Assembly: GCA_013298165.1 (NCBI GenBank)
Contig: JAAFJU010000029.1
Span: 1-41,618 of the forward strand
DNA length: 41,618 bases
Reading direction: 5' to 3'
DNA from: Synechococcales cyanobacterium bin31.maxbin.ball.101
Lineage (GTDB): Bacteria; Cyanobacteriota; Cyanobacteriia; Leptolyngbyales; Leptolyngbyaceae
Positions 17,301 through 20,696 of this stretch are shown one piece after another. The position numbers and the translations under genes are program-made. The notes beneath the pieces are model-generated. The model was not told the DNA's origin, did not search any database, and saw only the letters and a program-made list of their open reading frames with translations. Positions within the stretch are counted from its first letter, which is position 1, and the number at the start of each line of letters is the position of its first letter.

Positions 17301-17329
17301 TTGACAGCTCAAGACGACTGGTCTATTCT
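17301..17329 (+). promoter_or_regulatory. Sigma70-type promoter with operator, tetR
   Basis: TTGACA (17301-17306) and TATTCT (17324-17329) are separated by exactly 17 bp. The partly palindromic GACTGGTC (17316-17323) lies directly against the -10 hexamer. The same arrangement occurs before the SDR gene (18030-18043). The promoter lies inside the longest possible tetR frame, which argues for the later GTG start at 17364. Confidence 0.7.
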
Positions 17330-17363
17330 TGACTCATCCACTGAATCAAGTAGCCAATTAACT

Positions 17364-17966
17364 GTGAGTACGAGTCAGAAAAATGTAGTAAAGGAGGACA
17401 CGAGGCTTGCCTTAATTCGAGCAGGTCGAACGATCATCGTGGAGAAAGGGTACAACCACGCTGGAATTCAAGAAATCTTACAGGCTGTGGGCGTTCCGAA
17501 AGGCTCCTTCTATCACTTCTTCAGCAATAAGGAAGAGTTTGGTTTGGCCATCATTGATTATGATTCGCAGATGCACGATCGCATCGTCGAACAGTATTTG
17601 AAGGATGCGAGCTTAAGCCCTCTGAATAGACTGAAGCGCTACTTCGTCTTTAAAGTGGAAGAGTTTGAGACCTTGCAATATCGAGAAGGCTGTTTGTTTG
17701 GCAATCTTTCCCAAGAGATGGCGGATCAAAATGAACGGTTTCGATTGAAGTTGCAGGAGGCGACCGATCGTTGGCGCGATCAGTTTGCAGAATGCATTCA
17801 AGCCGCGCAGTCGATGGGCGAAATTTCAACCGAGTATGAAGCAAAAATGCTCTCGGAATTTTGCCTCAACAGTTGGGAAGGCGCACTGTTGAAGATGAAA
17901 GTCAGCAAAAGCGACGCTCCACTCAAGACCTATCTACAGTTCATGTTTGGGGTCATTCTCAAGTAG
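17364..17966 (+). CDS. TetR/AcrR-family transcription regulator
   Basis: From GTG 17364 the protein has 200 residues, the normal TetR size. The N-terminal helix-turn-helix domain reads TRLALIRAGRTIIVEKGYNH, then IQEILQAVGVPKGSFYHFFS (recognition helix) and NKEEFGLAII. The C-terminal ligand domain has a single cysteine-glycine YREGCLFGNLSQEMAD stretch typical of the AcuR/NemR-like subgroup, which often senses electrophiles or thiol stress; that function is inferred. The frame is open back to an ATG at 17226, but a perfect promoter and operator-like site lie at 17301-17329, so those codons are probably leader. The gene likely represses itself and the downstream SDR gene. Confidence 0.85.
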   Translation: MSTSQKNVVKEDTRLALIRAGRTIIVEKGYNHAGIQEILQAVGVPKGSFYHFFSNKEEFGLAIIDYDSQMHDRIVEQYLKDASLSPLNRLKRYFVFKVEEFETLQYREGCLFGNLSQEMADQNERFRLKLQEATDRWRDQFAECIQAAQSMGEISTEYEAKMLSEFCLNSWEGALLKMKVSKSDAPLKTYLQFMFGVILK

Positions 17967-17985
17967 TTCTAACGTTGTTCTGATG

Positions 17986-18011
17986 ACGCTATTTTCCAAG
18001 GTAGCGTTTTT
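17986..18011 (+). terminator. Intrinsic terminator of tetR
   Basis: ACGCTA (17986-17991) pairs with TAGCGT (18002-18007), followed by TTTTA. It is 20 bp after the tetR stop and just before the SDR promoter, so the two genes are separate transcripts. Confidence 0.7.
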
Positions 18012-18027
18012 ATGGACTCATTTTGAA

Positions 18028-18043
18028 TAGACTGGTCTATTTT
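18028..18043 (+). promoter_or_regulatory. Operator-like palindrome overlapping the SDR promoter
   Basis: TAGACTGGTCTA (18028-18039) is a near-perfect palindrome (TAGAC-2-GTCTA). It shares GACTGGTCTATT with the tetR promoter site. A TATTTT (18038-18043) in the position of the -10 follows GACTGGTC exactly as in the tetR promoter; the -35 is weak. Confidence 0.65.
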
Positions 18044-18068
18044 AATCATTCACTCAAAGGAGAACCTC

Positions 18069-18863
18069 ATGGATCTGCACATCAACGGTAAATTAGCACT
18101 CGTGACAGGCTCGACCTTGGGCATCGGCAAGGCCATTGCGACCAAACTTCTACAAGAAGGCGCGCATGTGATCATTAATGGCCGTTCTCAGGAGCGCGTT
18201 GATGCGGTCATTCAAGAATTGCAGGCGATCGGAACCCTGTATGGCATCGCCGCAGATATCGCAACAGCGGCGGGAGCGGAACAGTTAGCGATTGCGTCTC
18301 AGGCGATCGGTCCTGTCGATATTCTCATTAACAACGTCGGCTTTTTCGAGTTCAAACCCTTTTTTCAAGTGACCGATGCTGAATGGTTAAACTTATTTGA
18401 TCTAAATGTCATGAGTGGTGTGTGGTTAACTCGTTCCCTCATGCCCAAAATGCTGGAACGTAATTGGGGTCGAATTATCTTCATTGCTAGCGAAGCGGGC
18501 GTAAAACCCAATCCCGAAATGCTTCACTACTCCGTCACCAAAACCACTCAAATTGCATTAGCTCGCGGCTTGGCAGAAATGACGAAAGGAACTGGAGTCA
18601 CGGTTAATTCAGCATTGGTTGCGCCGACCTGGACTGAAGGAGTGGAAGTGTTTTTAGACAAAATTGCTCAATCTTCTGGAACAACTGTTGAAGCAATGAA
18701 AACGGATTACTTCAAAGCCGATGGGGTGACATCTTTGCTACAGCGATTTGCAACCGTTGATGAAATTGCCGATCTAGTCGTCTTTCTCTGCTCTGAGAAT
18801 GCTTCTGCCATTAATGGTGCCGCTCAACGGGTTGATGGTGGCATTATTCGATCGATTCTGTAG
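18069..18863 (+). CDS. Short-chain dehydrogenase/reductase (SDR)
   Basis: This 264-residue SDR is an NAD(P)-dependent oxidoreductase of unknown substrate. The Rossmann loop TGSTLGIG is at 13-20, the NNVG motif at 88-91, and the catalytic Ser-Tyr-Lys set at Ser141 (IIFIAS), Tyr154 and Lys158 (YSVTK). The Arg in NGRSQER after the second strand suggests NADP(H) preference. The C-terminal INGAAQRVDGG is the usual ending. AAAGGAG lies 7 nt before the ATG. It sits directly behind an operator matching that of tetR, so it is probably induced when the TetR protein releases DNA; the co-located DJ-1 protein suggests detoxification of reactive carbonyls, an inference. Confidence 0.9.
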   Translation: MDLHINGKLALVTGSTLGIGKAIATKLLQEGAHVIINGRSQERVDAVIQELQAIGTLYGIAADIATAAGAEQLAIASQAIGPVDILINNVGFFEFKPFFQVTDAEWLNLFDLNVMSGVWLTRSLMPKMLERNWGRIIFIASEAGVKPNPEMLHYSVTKTTQIALARGLAEMTKGTGVTVNSALVAPTWTEGVEVFLDKIAQSSGTTVEAMKTDYFKADGVTSLLQRFATVDEIADLVVFLCSENASAINGAAQRVDGGIIRSIL

Positions 18864-18906
18864 CCATTCTTTAACCACTGTTCAATCTATCCACTGAGAA
18901 TTCAAT

Positions 18907-19782
18907 ATGAAAAAGCGATTTCTTGCGTTTCCATGCTCTTTATTAGTAGCTGTTTTAGTTGCCGCTCCTGCTTCAACCCAAACAGCTATAAAAGGCAATG
19001 TTCTAGTTGTTGTTTCTAGTGAAGAGACGATCGAGCTTCAAGACGGTAAGACCTACAAAACAGGCTACTTTCTCAACGAGTTGGCTGTGCCCGTCAAACG
19101 ATTGCAGGAAGAGGGTTATGCAATCACATTTGCGAACCCAAAGGGGAATAAACCTACAATGGACATTCATTCTGACTCGGTTGATTTTTTTGGTAAAGAT
19201 TACAGTCAATATCGAGCCATTAAAACGTTTCATGATGGCTTAGTGAATCTGAAATCTCCGCGTAAGCTGGCGGACGTTGTTCAGGACGGTTTGGATCGGT
19301 ATGATGCGGTCTTTTTTCCGGGAGGACATGCCCCGATGCAGGATCTAATTCGTGACCCAAGCGTAAGACAAATCTTGACGCATTTTCATCAAACTGGAAA
19401 ACCGACAGCCCTGATTTGCCACGCCCCGATCGCACTCATTGCTGCAATGCCTCAAGCGGATGAGTTTGCTCAAGCCATGAGACAAGGTCATTCCAGGCAA
19501 GCGGCAGAACTTGCCAAAGACTGGCCGTACAAGAACTACAAAATGACGATTTTCTCCACAGCAGAGGAGAAAATAGCAGAATCAACGCAGCTTCAAGGCA
19601 AGATGCTGTTTTACCCGCAAGAGGCCCTCAAGTCTGCGGGCGGCGATGTCAAAATTGTCAAACCCTGGAATAGTCAAGTGGTGCGAGATCGAGAGTTGAT
19701 CACAGGACAAAATCCTTTTTCTGATGAGGCTCTAGCAGAAACGCTCCTGAGGGCGATCGTCCAAAAGAACCCAACAAAATAG
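18907..19782 (+). CDS. Exported DJ-1/PfpI-family protein
   Basis: This 291-residue protein is a class I glutamine-amidotransferase-like DJ-1/PfpI protein of the larger Hsp31/YdeA-like subgroup. It has a signal peptide (about 1-24, ending PASTQT), which is unusual because most family members are cytoplasmic. The nucleophile elbow is ALICHAPIAL (Cys171-His172), preceded by FFPGGHAPMQDL, and a conserved Glu sits in FLNELAVPV (Glu58). Family members act as chaperones, glyoxalases or isonitrile hydratase-like enzymes; none can be assigned here. The gene is 43 bp after the SDR stop on the same strand, with no terminator between, so they form an operon. Confidence 0.85.
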   Translation: MKKRFLAFPCSLLVAVLVAAPASTQTAIKGNVLVVVSSEETIELQDGKTYKTGYFLNELAVPVKRLQEEGYAITFANPKGNKPTMDIHSDSVDFFGKDYSQYRAIKTFHDGLVNLKSPRKLADVVQDGLDRYDAVFFPGGHAPMQDLIRDPSVRQILTHFHQTGKPTALICHAPIALIAAMPQADEFAQAMRQGHSRQAAELAKDWPYKNYKMTIFSTAEEKIAESTQLQGKMLFYPQEALKSAGGDVKIVKPWNSQVVRDRELITGQNPFSDEALAETLLRAIVQKNPTK

Positions 19783-19798
19783 CAAACGAGGGATGAAA

Positions 19799-20620
19799 CT
19801 ATAGGGTTTGCCCCGCTTGAATTTGGTGAATCTGTTCCACAGAAAACTCCGTCAGGCGGGCAATGGTTTCGATCGGCAGCCCCTCATCCAACAGCCCAAC
19901 CACGACTCGTTGCAAATCATTCAGCCGCTTTGCTTCACCTCTGGCTTCACCTCTGGCTTCACCTCTGGCTTCACCTCTGGCTTCGCCTTCTTGTAAAATT
20001 TCTTGATAAATCACGGATTCTCGCATAATGCCCTCTCGGAAAACACGACGGATTTTGTCTTTATCGTACTTCAAACCTGCCATGAGCTGCACATAGGAAG
20101 AGACTTGTCTCTTTTCGGCGATCGGCTGAATCTCTTCGACTTTCTGAGCGACTTGGGTGAGTAAAGTGTCTGGTTTTCCCAACTGGGTCAAGGTGGCAAA
20201 GGGAAGCAGCACTGGGTCTTGCAGAAATAGATTCACATCCTGCTCCCACATTTTAATCACGGTAAATTCGTGATTGGTTCCTTCAAATTGAAACCTGGGT
20301 TCGATAATGCTCTCGTCGGTAGGTGGGAGCAACACGACGACAATTTGAGTGATAGGAAGTCGGTAAAGTCGGTAGAGTCGCACCCAGTAATCAAGCATCC
20401 TGAGGGGCATCGGGGGTTCGGATTGCCAGAGGGTTTGGAACTCGATGTGAAGGATTCGGCCTTCGGCTTTTAAAAAGGTGACAGAATCGGCGCGAATCGG
20501 TTCGATGCTGAGTTCGGGTTTGAGAATGGTGACTTCATCGGGCCTGTGTCCCACTAGCCATTGGGTGAAGGTTTTTGGGTTCTTTTCGGCAAGGAGCTTG
20601 CAAAGATTATCGAAGGACAT
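19799..20620 (-). CDS. Rpn-family putative PD-(D/E)XK nuclease/transposase
   Basis: The protein (273 residues from ATG 20620) is a member of the Rpn/YhgA-like family of recombination-promoting nucleases. The PD-(D/E)XK core is visible as RADSVTFLKAEGRILHIEFQ, with D-x-E and E-F-Q positions. The C-terminal region contains GEARGEARGEARGEARGEAK, coded by a 12-bp tandem repeat, and ends in a helix pair with ETIARLTEFSVEQIHQIQAG. The longest frame would begin with TTG at 20680, but that codon lies inside the hairpin terminator of prs, so ATG 20620 is preferred. The tail resembles the intron-interrupted gene at the left end of the window. These genes are typically mobile or host many copies. Confidence 0.85.
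   Translation of the reverse strand: MSFDNLCKLLAEKNPKTFTQWLVGHRPDEVTILKPELSIEPIRADSVTFLKAEGRILHIEFQTLWQSEPPMPLRMLDYWVRLYRLYRLPITQIVVVLLPPTDESIIEPRFQFEGTNHEFTVIKMWEQDVNLFLQDPVLLPFATLTQLGKPDTLLTQVAQKVEEIQPIAEKRQVSSYVQLMAGLKYDKDKIRRVFREGIMRESVIYQEILQEGEARGEARGEARGEARGEAKRLNDLQRVVVGLLDEGLPIETIARLTEFSVEQIHQIQAGQTL
19936..19990 (-). repeat. 12-bp tandem repeat encoding GEAR units
   Basis: CTCTGGCTTCAC repeats in tandem four to five times on the plus strand; on the coding strand each unit gives Gly-Glu-Ala-Arg. Copy number could vary by slippage and would change the protein by four residues per unit without a frameshift. Confidence 0.85.
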
Positions 20621-20667
20621 AGCGAGAATCCAGCGGTGACGAGGGTGACGGGTGAATGAAACAAAAT

Positions 20668-20696
20668 CGGACTTTTCCAACGCTTGGAAAAGTCCG
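20668..20696 (-). terminator. Intrinsic terminator of prs
   Basis: CGGACTTTTCCAA (20668-20680) pairs perfectly with TTGGAAAAGTCCG (20684-20696) around a 3-nt loop. On the minus strand it is followed by ATTTTGTTT. It lies 48 bp after the prs stop. Confidence 0.8.

Follow-up and report, generated by a model that had tools for sequence, protein, structure and literature searches.

A TetR-family repressor gene and the two genes that follow it, encoding an SDR oxidoreductase and a predicted exported DJ-1/PfpI protein, very probably belong to an already known class of stress regulon, with the twist that the two switches are differently spaced. We analyzed a window of 41,618 nucleotides, positions 1 to 41,618 of contig JAAFJU010000029.1 of a Synechococcales cyanobacterium, in which the two operators have two geometries built on a common core, with half-sites 5 bp apart (N5) before tetR and 2 bp apart (N2) before the SDR gene, and are not one shared sequence. 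The same switches lie beside related repressors in distant bacteria, and hence the self-regulating regulon is very probably real.

The exact 12-mer GACTGGTCTATT was found at 17316-17327, before tetR, and at 18030-18041, before the SDR gene, with no further copy in the window, as an earlier sequence-only reading of this DNA had described. Operator 1 (17311-17325, forward strand) is AAGAC-GACTG-GTCTA, an N5 dyad with one mismatch, which fills the spacer between the -35 element TTGACA (17301-17306) and the -10 hexamer TATTCT (17324-17329); the 17 bp separation given by that reading was reproduced, and the last TA of the operator starts the -10. In the N2 register the same site reads ACGACTGGTCTA and has two mismatches, and it is the N5 reading that is kept in relatives. 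Operator 2 (18026-18041, forward strand) is AATAGACTGGTCTATT, with the N2 core TAGAC-TG-GTCTA at 18028-18039. In this stretch, TAGACTGGTCTA, all ten outer bases are matched around an asymmetric TG center, and the longer palindrome reads AATAGAC-TG-GTCTATT; the site was thus correctly described as a near-perfect palindrome with the -10-like hexamer TATTTT (18038-18043) abutting it. The idea of a shared operator survived in part: the core GACTGGTCTA, whose final two bases (TA) open the -10 hexamer, is common to both sites, but the geometry differs (TAGAC-N2-GTCTA versus AAGAC-N5-GTCTA). The -35 candidate of the SDR promoter is weak (TGGACT, 18013-18018, 19 bp spacer), which counts against the model proposed below.

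Placing the operator between the -35 and -10 elements is a conserved arrangement and no local accident, since 39 of 81 sites have, at 17-18 bp from the operator TA, a -35 element that matches at least five of the six bases of TTGACA, compared with a mean of 2.5 and a maximum of 7 for random positions. In many relatives (L037-L039, L043-L058), a short distance separates the operator end from the tetR start, which suggests that the tetR transcripts there are leaderless or near-leaderless, as reported for acuR. Tandem N5 operators 29-31 bp apart (a distance of approximately three turns of the helix), located for the most part on the distal side of a divergent promoter region, occur in L024, L025, L027, L053, L056-L058, and L061, where cooperative binding is possible. 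In the closest relative, L035, a second N2-like site (269-280) immediately precedes the tetR start; the window bases that align with it, 17346-17362, no longer form a dyad, and a corresponding site may have decayed.

The regulator gene (17364-17966, forward strand) encodes an AcuR/NemR-like repressor of 200 amino acids. Its start is most likely the GTG at 17364, because homology to close relatives supports this choice and the promoter then stays outside the coding region; the long open reading frame from 17226 would overrun the promoter. Membership of the TetR family is documented by Pfam matches to TetR_N (40.9, cut-off 24), TetR_C_13 (71.1, cut-off 27), and the LmrA/YxaF-like TetR_C_13_2 (53.2, cut-off 27). 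The nearest NCBIfam profile is AcuR (NF051457), with 183.3 bits against an equivalog cut-off of 247, and the protein is therefore AcuR-like, not AcuR. Among solved structures 3bru was the best match, and NemR (4yze) was among the others with 75 bits. Cys110 and Lys179 align with Cys106 and Lys175 of the NemR-type thiol sensor, and both residues are invariant in 42 of 42 proteins (the window protein and 41 homologues). The firm evidence for the match to NemR of Escherichia coli is the PDB alignment. The AcuR profile and the retained NemR sensor residues together support the earlier assignment of the protein as AcuR/NemR-like. NemR requires Cys106 to respond to hypochlorite; for electrophiles, a role of other cysteines has been suggested (PMC3739934; PMC5297802). 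A sulfenamide bond to Lys175 was also proposed, but a NemR-based sensor did not show it (PMC8748444). Given this literature, the conserved Cys110/Lys179 pair is compatible with thiol sensing but is no proof of its chemistry.

The target genes are those named in the sequence-only reading. The first (18069-18863, forward strand) encodes a classical SDR oxidoreductase of 264 amino acids, as indicated by an adh_short match, the TGxxxGxG and YxxxK motifs (here TGSTLGIG and YSVTK), and 3t4x as the closest solved relative. The second (18907-19782, forward strand) encodes an HchA-like DJ-1/PfpI protein of 291 amino acids, with a Pfam DJ-1_PfpI match that places it in the superfamily, and with Glu58, Cys171, and His172 aligning with Glu77, Cys185, and His186 of HchA, whose catalytic roles have been described (PMC5297802). 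Its score against the HchA (glyoxalase III) equivalog NF003168 was 97.8 bits, short of the cut-off of 365. The N-terminus carries positive charge at its start and then a hydrophobic stretch, as is typical of Sec signals, and hydropathy predicts a signal segment, MKKRFLAFPCSLLVAVLVAAPASTQ, at 18907-18981 (forward strand, end approximate); a similar segment is present in the L035 orthologue. With a gap of 43 bp between them, the two genes probably share a transcript. At E 1e-40, the DJ-1 protein was detected in none of 143 other relatives, and the pair of SDR and predicted exported DJ-1 is common only to this DNA and one close relative, L035. That relative has the same gene order plus an extra gene for a cytosolic DJ-1 protein (1003-1698) between tetR and SDR, preceded by an N2 operator. 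The extra gene is absent from the window, and the N2 operator fronts whichever gene stands first. Downstream, a 293-amino-acid open reading frame (19799-20680, reverse strand) gave no Pfam match at E 0.001; a tandem repeat of the 12-base unit GGCTTCACCTCT at 19930-19990 encodes GEAR repeats near its C-terminus.

Conservation of the operators was assessed in TetR homologues gathered from 194 relatives and a genome collection, with the flanks of 42 tetR genes from Cyanobacteria, Melainabacteria, Geobacter-type bacteria, and others scanned for dyads without bias, i.e., for every 5-mer at spacings of 0-12. A second genome search yielded two loci that are apparently on the same contigs as L038/L039, and these were counted once. 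TAGAC-N5 (21 loci) and TAGAC-N6 (13 loci) were the top two dyads, and TAGAC-N2 (8 loci) was within the top four; a further dyad, AGACC-N4 (9 loci), is part of the N6 form, and dyads unrelated to the motif reached 3 loci at most. All operator forms in the site alignment carry a GAYYRGTCTA-type core. All 12 genomes whose TetR is at least 43% identical contained the exact N5 14-mer, compared with 2 of 182 others (Fisher 2e-17, phylogeny not corrected), and the distant homologues L032-L034 (33-39% identity) had no TAGAC dyads. Dyads are thus kept at related tetR loci, and are not a feature of this cluster that its homologues lack.

Within the 5.39 Mb genome, a pattern search found AGACGACYRGTCTA with at most one mismatch in one place, the tetR promoter, and TAGACYRGTCTA with no mismatch in one place, the SDR promoter, so that these sites are not common at random positions. 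The genome scan for TAGAC-2-GTCTA that the sequence-only reading had proposed would miss the tetR site, which is of the N5 form, and with one mismatch allowed the N2 set was at background level (25 places versus 31 for the reversed control). In the genomes of the 194 relatives, the N2 motif was found in 14, no more than its reversed control. As this motif thus shows no genome-wide enrichment in relatives, its support is positional: N2 dyads lie between tetR and its neighbor in many cyanobacterial loci with differing neighbor genes. Several further candidates were rejected as regulon members, namely the four remaining exact TAGACNNGTCTA occurrences in the genome, all within long open reading frames; an N2 site with one mismatch next to a tRNA-like sequence (L070), judged to be chance; and same-family SDR homologues (~55% identity), which lack sites.

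When the spacing at the tetR promoter was compared with that at the other promoter of the same locus, it was longer in 21 cases, equal in 6, and shorter in none; many of these loci are related, so that the independent events are fewer. Cyanobacteria often have N5 at tetR and N2 at the target, the order also seen in the window, and Geobacter-type bacteria and Melainabacteria have N6 and N5. The half-site centers are 11 bp apart in N6, 10 bp in N5, and 7 bp in N2. Judged by how TetR-family proteins generally bind, spacings of the N6 and N5 type would suit one TetR dimer contacting successive major grooves, and the N2 spacing would not. Sites of the N2 type might therefore engage two dimers, or be recognized through the core plus its flanks. 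We tentatively propose, while holding it at somewhat below an even chance, that a single repressor lineage uses three geometries, with TAGAC half-sites 2, 5, and 6 bp apart on a GAYYRGTCTA core, in a fixed order, and that spacing is an evolved dial that sets self-control apart from the control of targets, N2 being read otherwise, e.g., by two dimers. In the searchable papers, mostly without subscription journals, no report of the N2 or N5 forms or of an ordered spacing was found, which is weak evidence of novelty. Searches with the exact operator sequence returned unrelated papers only, and in the accessible portions of the TetR literature TAGAC/GTCTA led to AcuR and otherwise to papers on other regulators.

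The genes beside the TetR gene vary between relatives. They encode YqhD-like Fe-ADH, NemA/NamA-like old yellow enzymes (OYE), cytosolic DJ-1, GST, SDR, YhdH/AcuI-family reductase, FMN reductase, and HchA-like and glyoxalase-type proteins, and in some relatives non-detoxification proteins, i.e., an HlyD-family efflux protein and an MRJP-like lipoprotein. As judged from these families, the neighbor set is mainly aldehyde/electrophile-handling. In L116 (G119:C134), an unlinked N5 site at 1501, found by pattern alone, lies ~100 bp before a NamA-like OYE gene, with the TetR gene elsewhere in the genome; this OYE gene is a motif-predicted member of the regulon in trans.

The closest described system is AcuR of Rhodobacter sphaeroides (acuR-acuI-dddL, PMC3017554), likewise a TetR-family protein that is autoregulated, as is predicted here, through a TAGAC...GTCTA inverted repeat over its promoter. 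The AcuR operator, TAATAGAC/n6/GTCTATTA, lies over its own promoter and was shown by mutation, and acrylate relieves repression (PMC3017554). The sites described here are AcuR-type inverted repeats overlapping promoters, with spacers of 5 and 2 bp instead of 6; unlike the AcuR system, acuI and dddL are absent, the neighbors being SDR and DJ-1, and the target genes have a separate promoter with an N2 operator. The association of an AcuR equivalog with acuI and/or a DMSP lyase gene in its operon does not hold here. NemR of E. coli (nemRA-gloA) resembles the window protein in its TetR family and the Cys106/Lys175 pair, and NemA-like OYE and glyoxalase-type genes occur in relatives, but the sequence similarity is distant, and nemA and gloA are absent from the window; the comparison with NemR covers the protein. 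AltR of Pantoea ananatis, an autorepressor related to NemR, has a cysteine sensor and an inverted repeat that overlaps the -10; it differs in its half-sites (CAATCTAC N6 GTAGATTG) and its specificity for thiosulfinates (PMC13178969). LmrA/YxaF (QdoR) of Bacillus subtilis shares the TetR_C_13_2 domain and differs in being flavonoid-responsive; QdoR is autoregulated, and the strength of its operators differs between regulator and target promoters (PMC8481877).

We consider it likely, from conserved sites, sensor residues, and the mostly detoxifying neighbors in relatives, that tetR and the SDR-DJ-1 pair form an autorepressed, AcuR/NemR-like regulon relieved by electrophiles or aldehydes, in line with the earlier interpretation of autorepression plus control of a detoxification-type pair. 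Besides the weak -35 of the SDR gene, points that weigh against it are the varied neighbors in relatives, some of them outside detoxification, the sharing of the SDR and exported DJ-1 pair with a single close relative, and the N2 motif's background frequency in the relatives' genomes. The model joins operators, promoter overlap, conservation, cysteine, and gene pair, all read from sequence, to inferred binding, repression, inducer, and enzyme substrates. The repressor would act on its own promoter via the N5 operator and on the SDR-DJ-1 promoter via the N2 operator. As the operators occupy the -35/-10 spacer and end inside the -10, a bound dimer would exclude RNA polymerase from both promoters. 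A reactive electrophile or aldehyde may modify Cys110, with Lys179 as its partner, or a small ligand may bind nearby; the repressor would then leave the DNA, and tetR, SDR, and the exported HchA-like DJ-1 protein would be induced. The SDR may reduce or oxidize a carbonyl compound, and the DJ-1 protein may have oxoaldehydes or glycated material beyond the cytoplasm as its substrates.

Sensing might instead follow AcuR, with an intact small molecule (acrylate, another unsaturated acid, or a phenolic) bound, the cysteine unmodified, and SDR and DJ-1 serving catabolism, not detoxification. AcuR is the best NCBIfam profile, at 183 bits; a YhdH/AcuI-family reductase gene adjoins the TetR gene in Geobacter-type relatives; and AcuR itself is relieved by acrylate (PMC3017554). 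The conserved cysteine also occurs in AcuR-like proteins, and therefore does not decide between ligand and thiol sensing. The unmet 247-bit cut-off, the missing acuI and DMSP lyase genes, and the general aldehyde/electrophile reductases beside the gene in most relatives make ligand sensing of this kind unlikely, though still the most serious rival.

It is clearly less probable that the TetR protein controls only itself, with the N2 site belonging to another regulator or arising by coincidence. Such a view would suit the background frequency of the N2 motif alone and the 7 bp distance that one dimer should not accommodate, but N2 dyads recur between tetR and varied neighbors in many cyanobacterial loci, and the N2 site has the 10-base core of N5 and equal placement against the -10. 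An origin of the repeated 12-mer from likeness between promoter hexamers plus chance is hardly credible: the TATTnT part belongs to any -10, a 12-mer can repeat at random within 41 kb, and the two-mismatch count in the window is mildly above expectation, but the dyad is deeply conserved at homologous positions in distant bacteria and unique genome-wide. We judged a chance origin to be refuted by these comparative data.

The electrophile- or aldehyde-relieved regulon favored here offers a testable operator code for the widespread, little-studied AcuR/NemR-like repressors of cyanobacteria and their relatives, whose targets likely handle reactive aldehydes. The ordered half-site spacing between self- and target promoters raises the question of how a TetR dimer can accommodate half-sites whose centers lie 7, 10, and 11 bp apart. 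If the predicted binding is true, small matched sets of promoters of differing strength would become usable for cyanobacterial biosensors.
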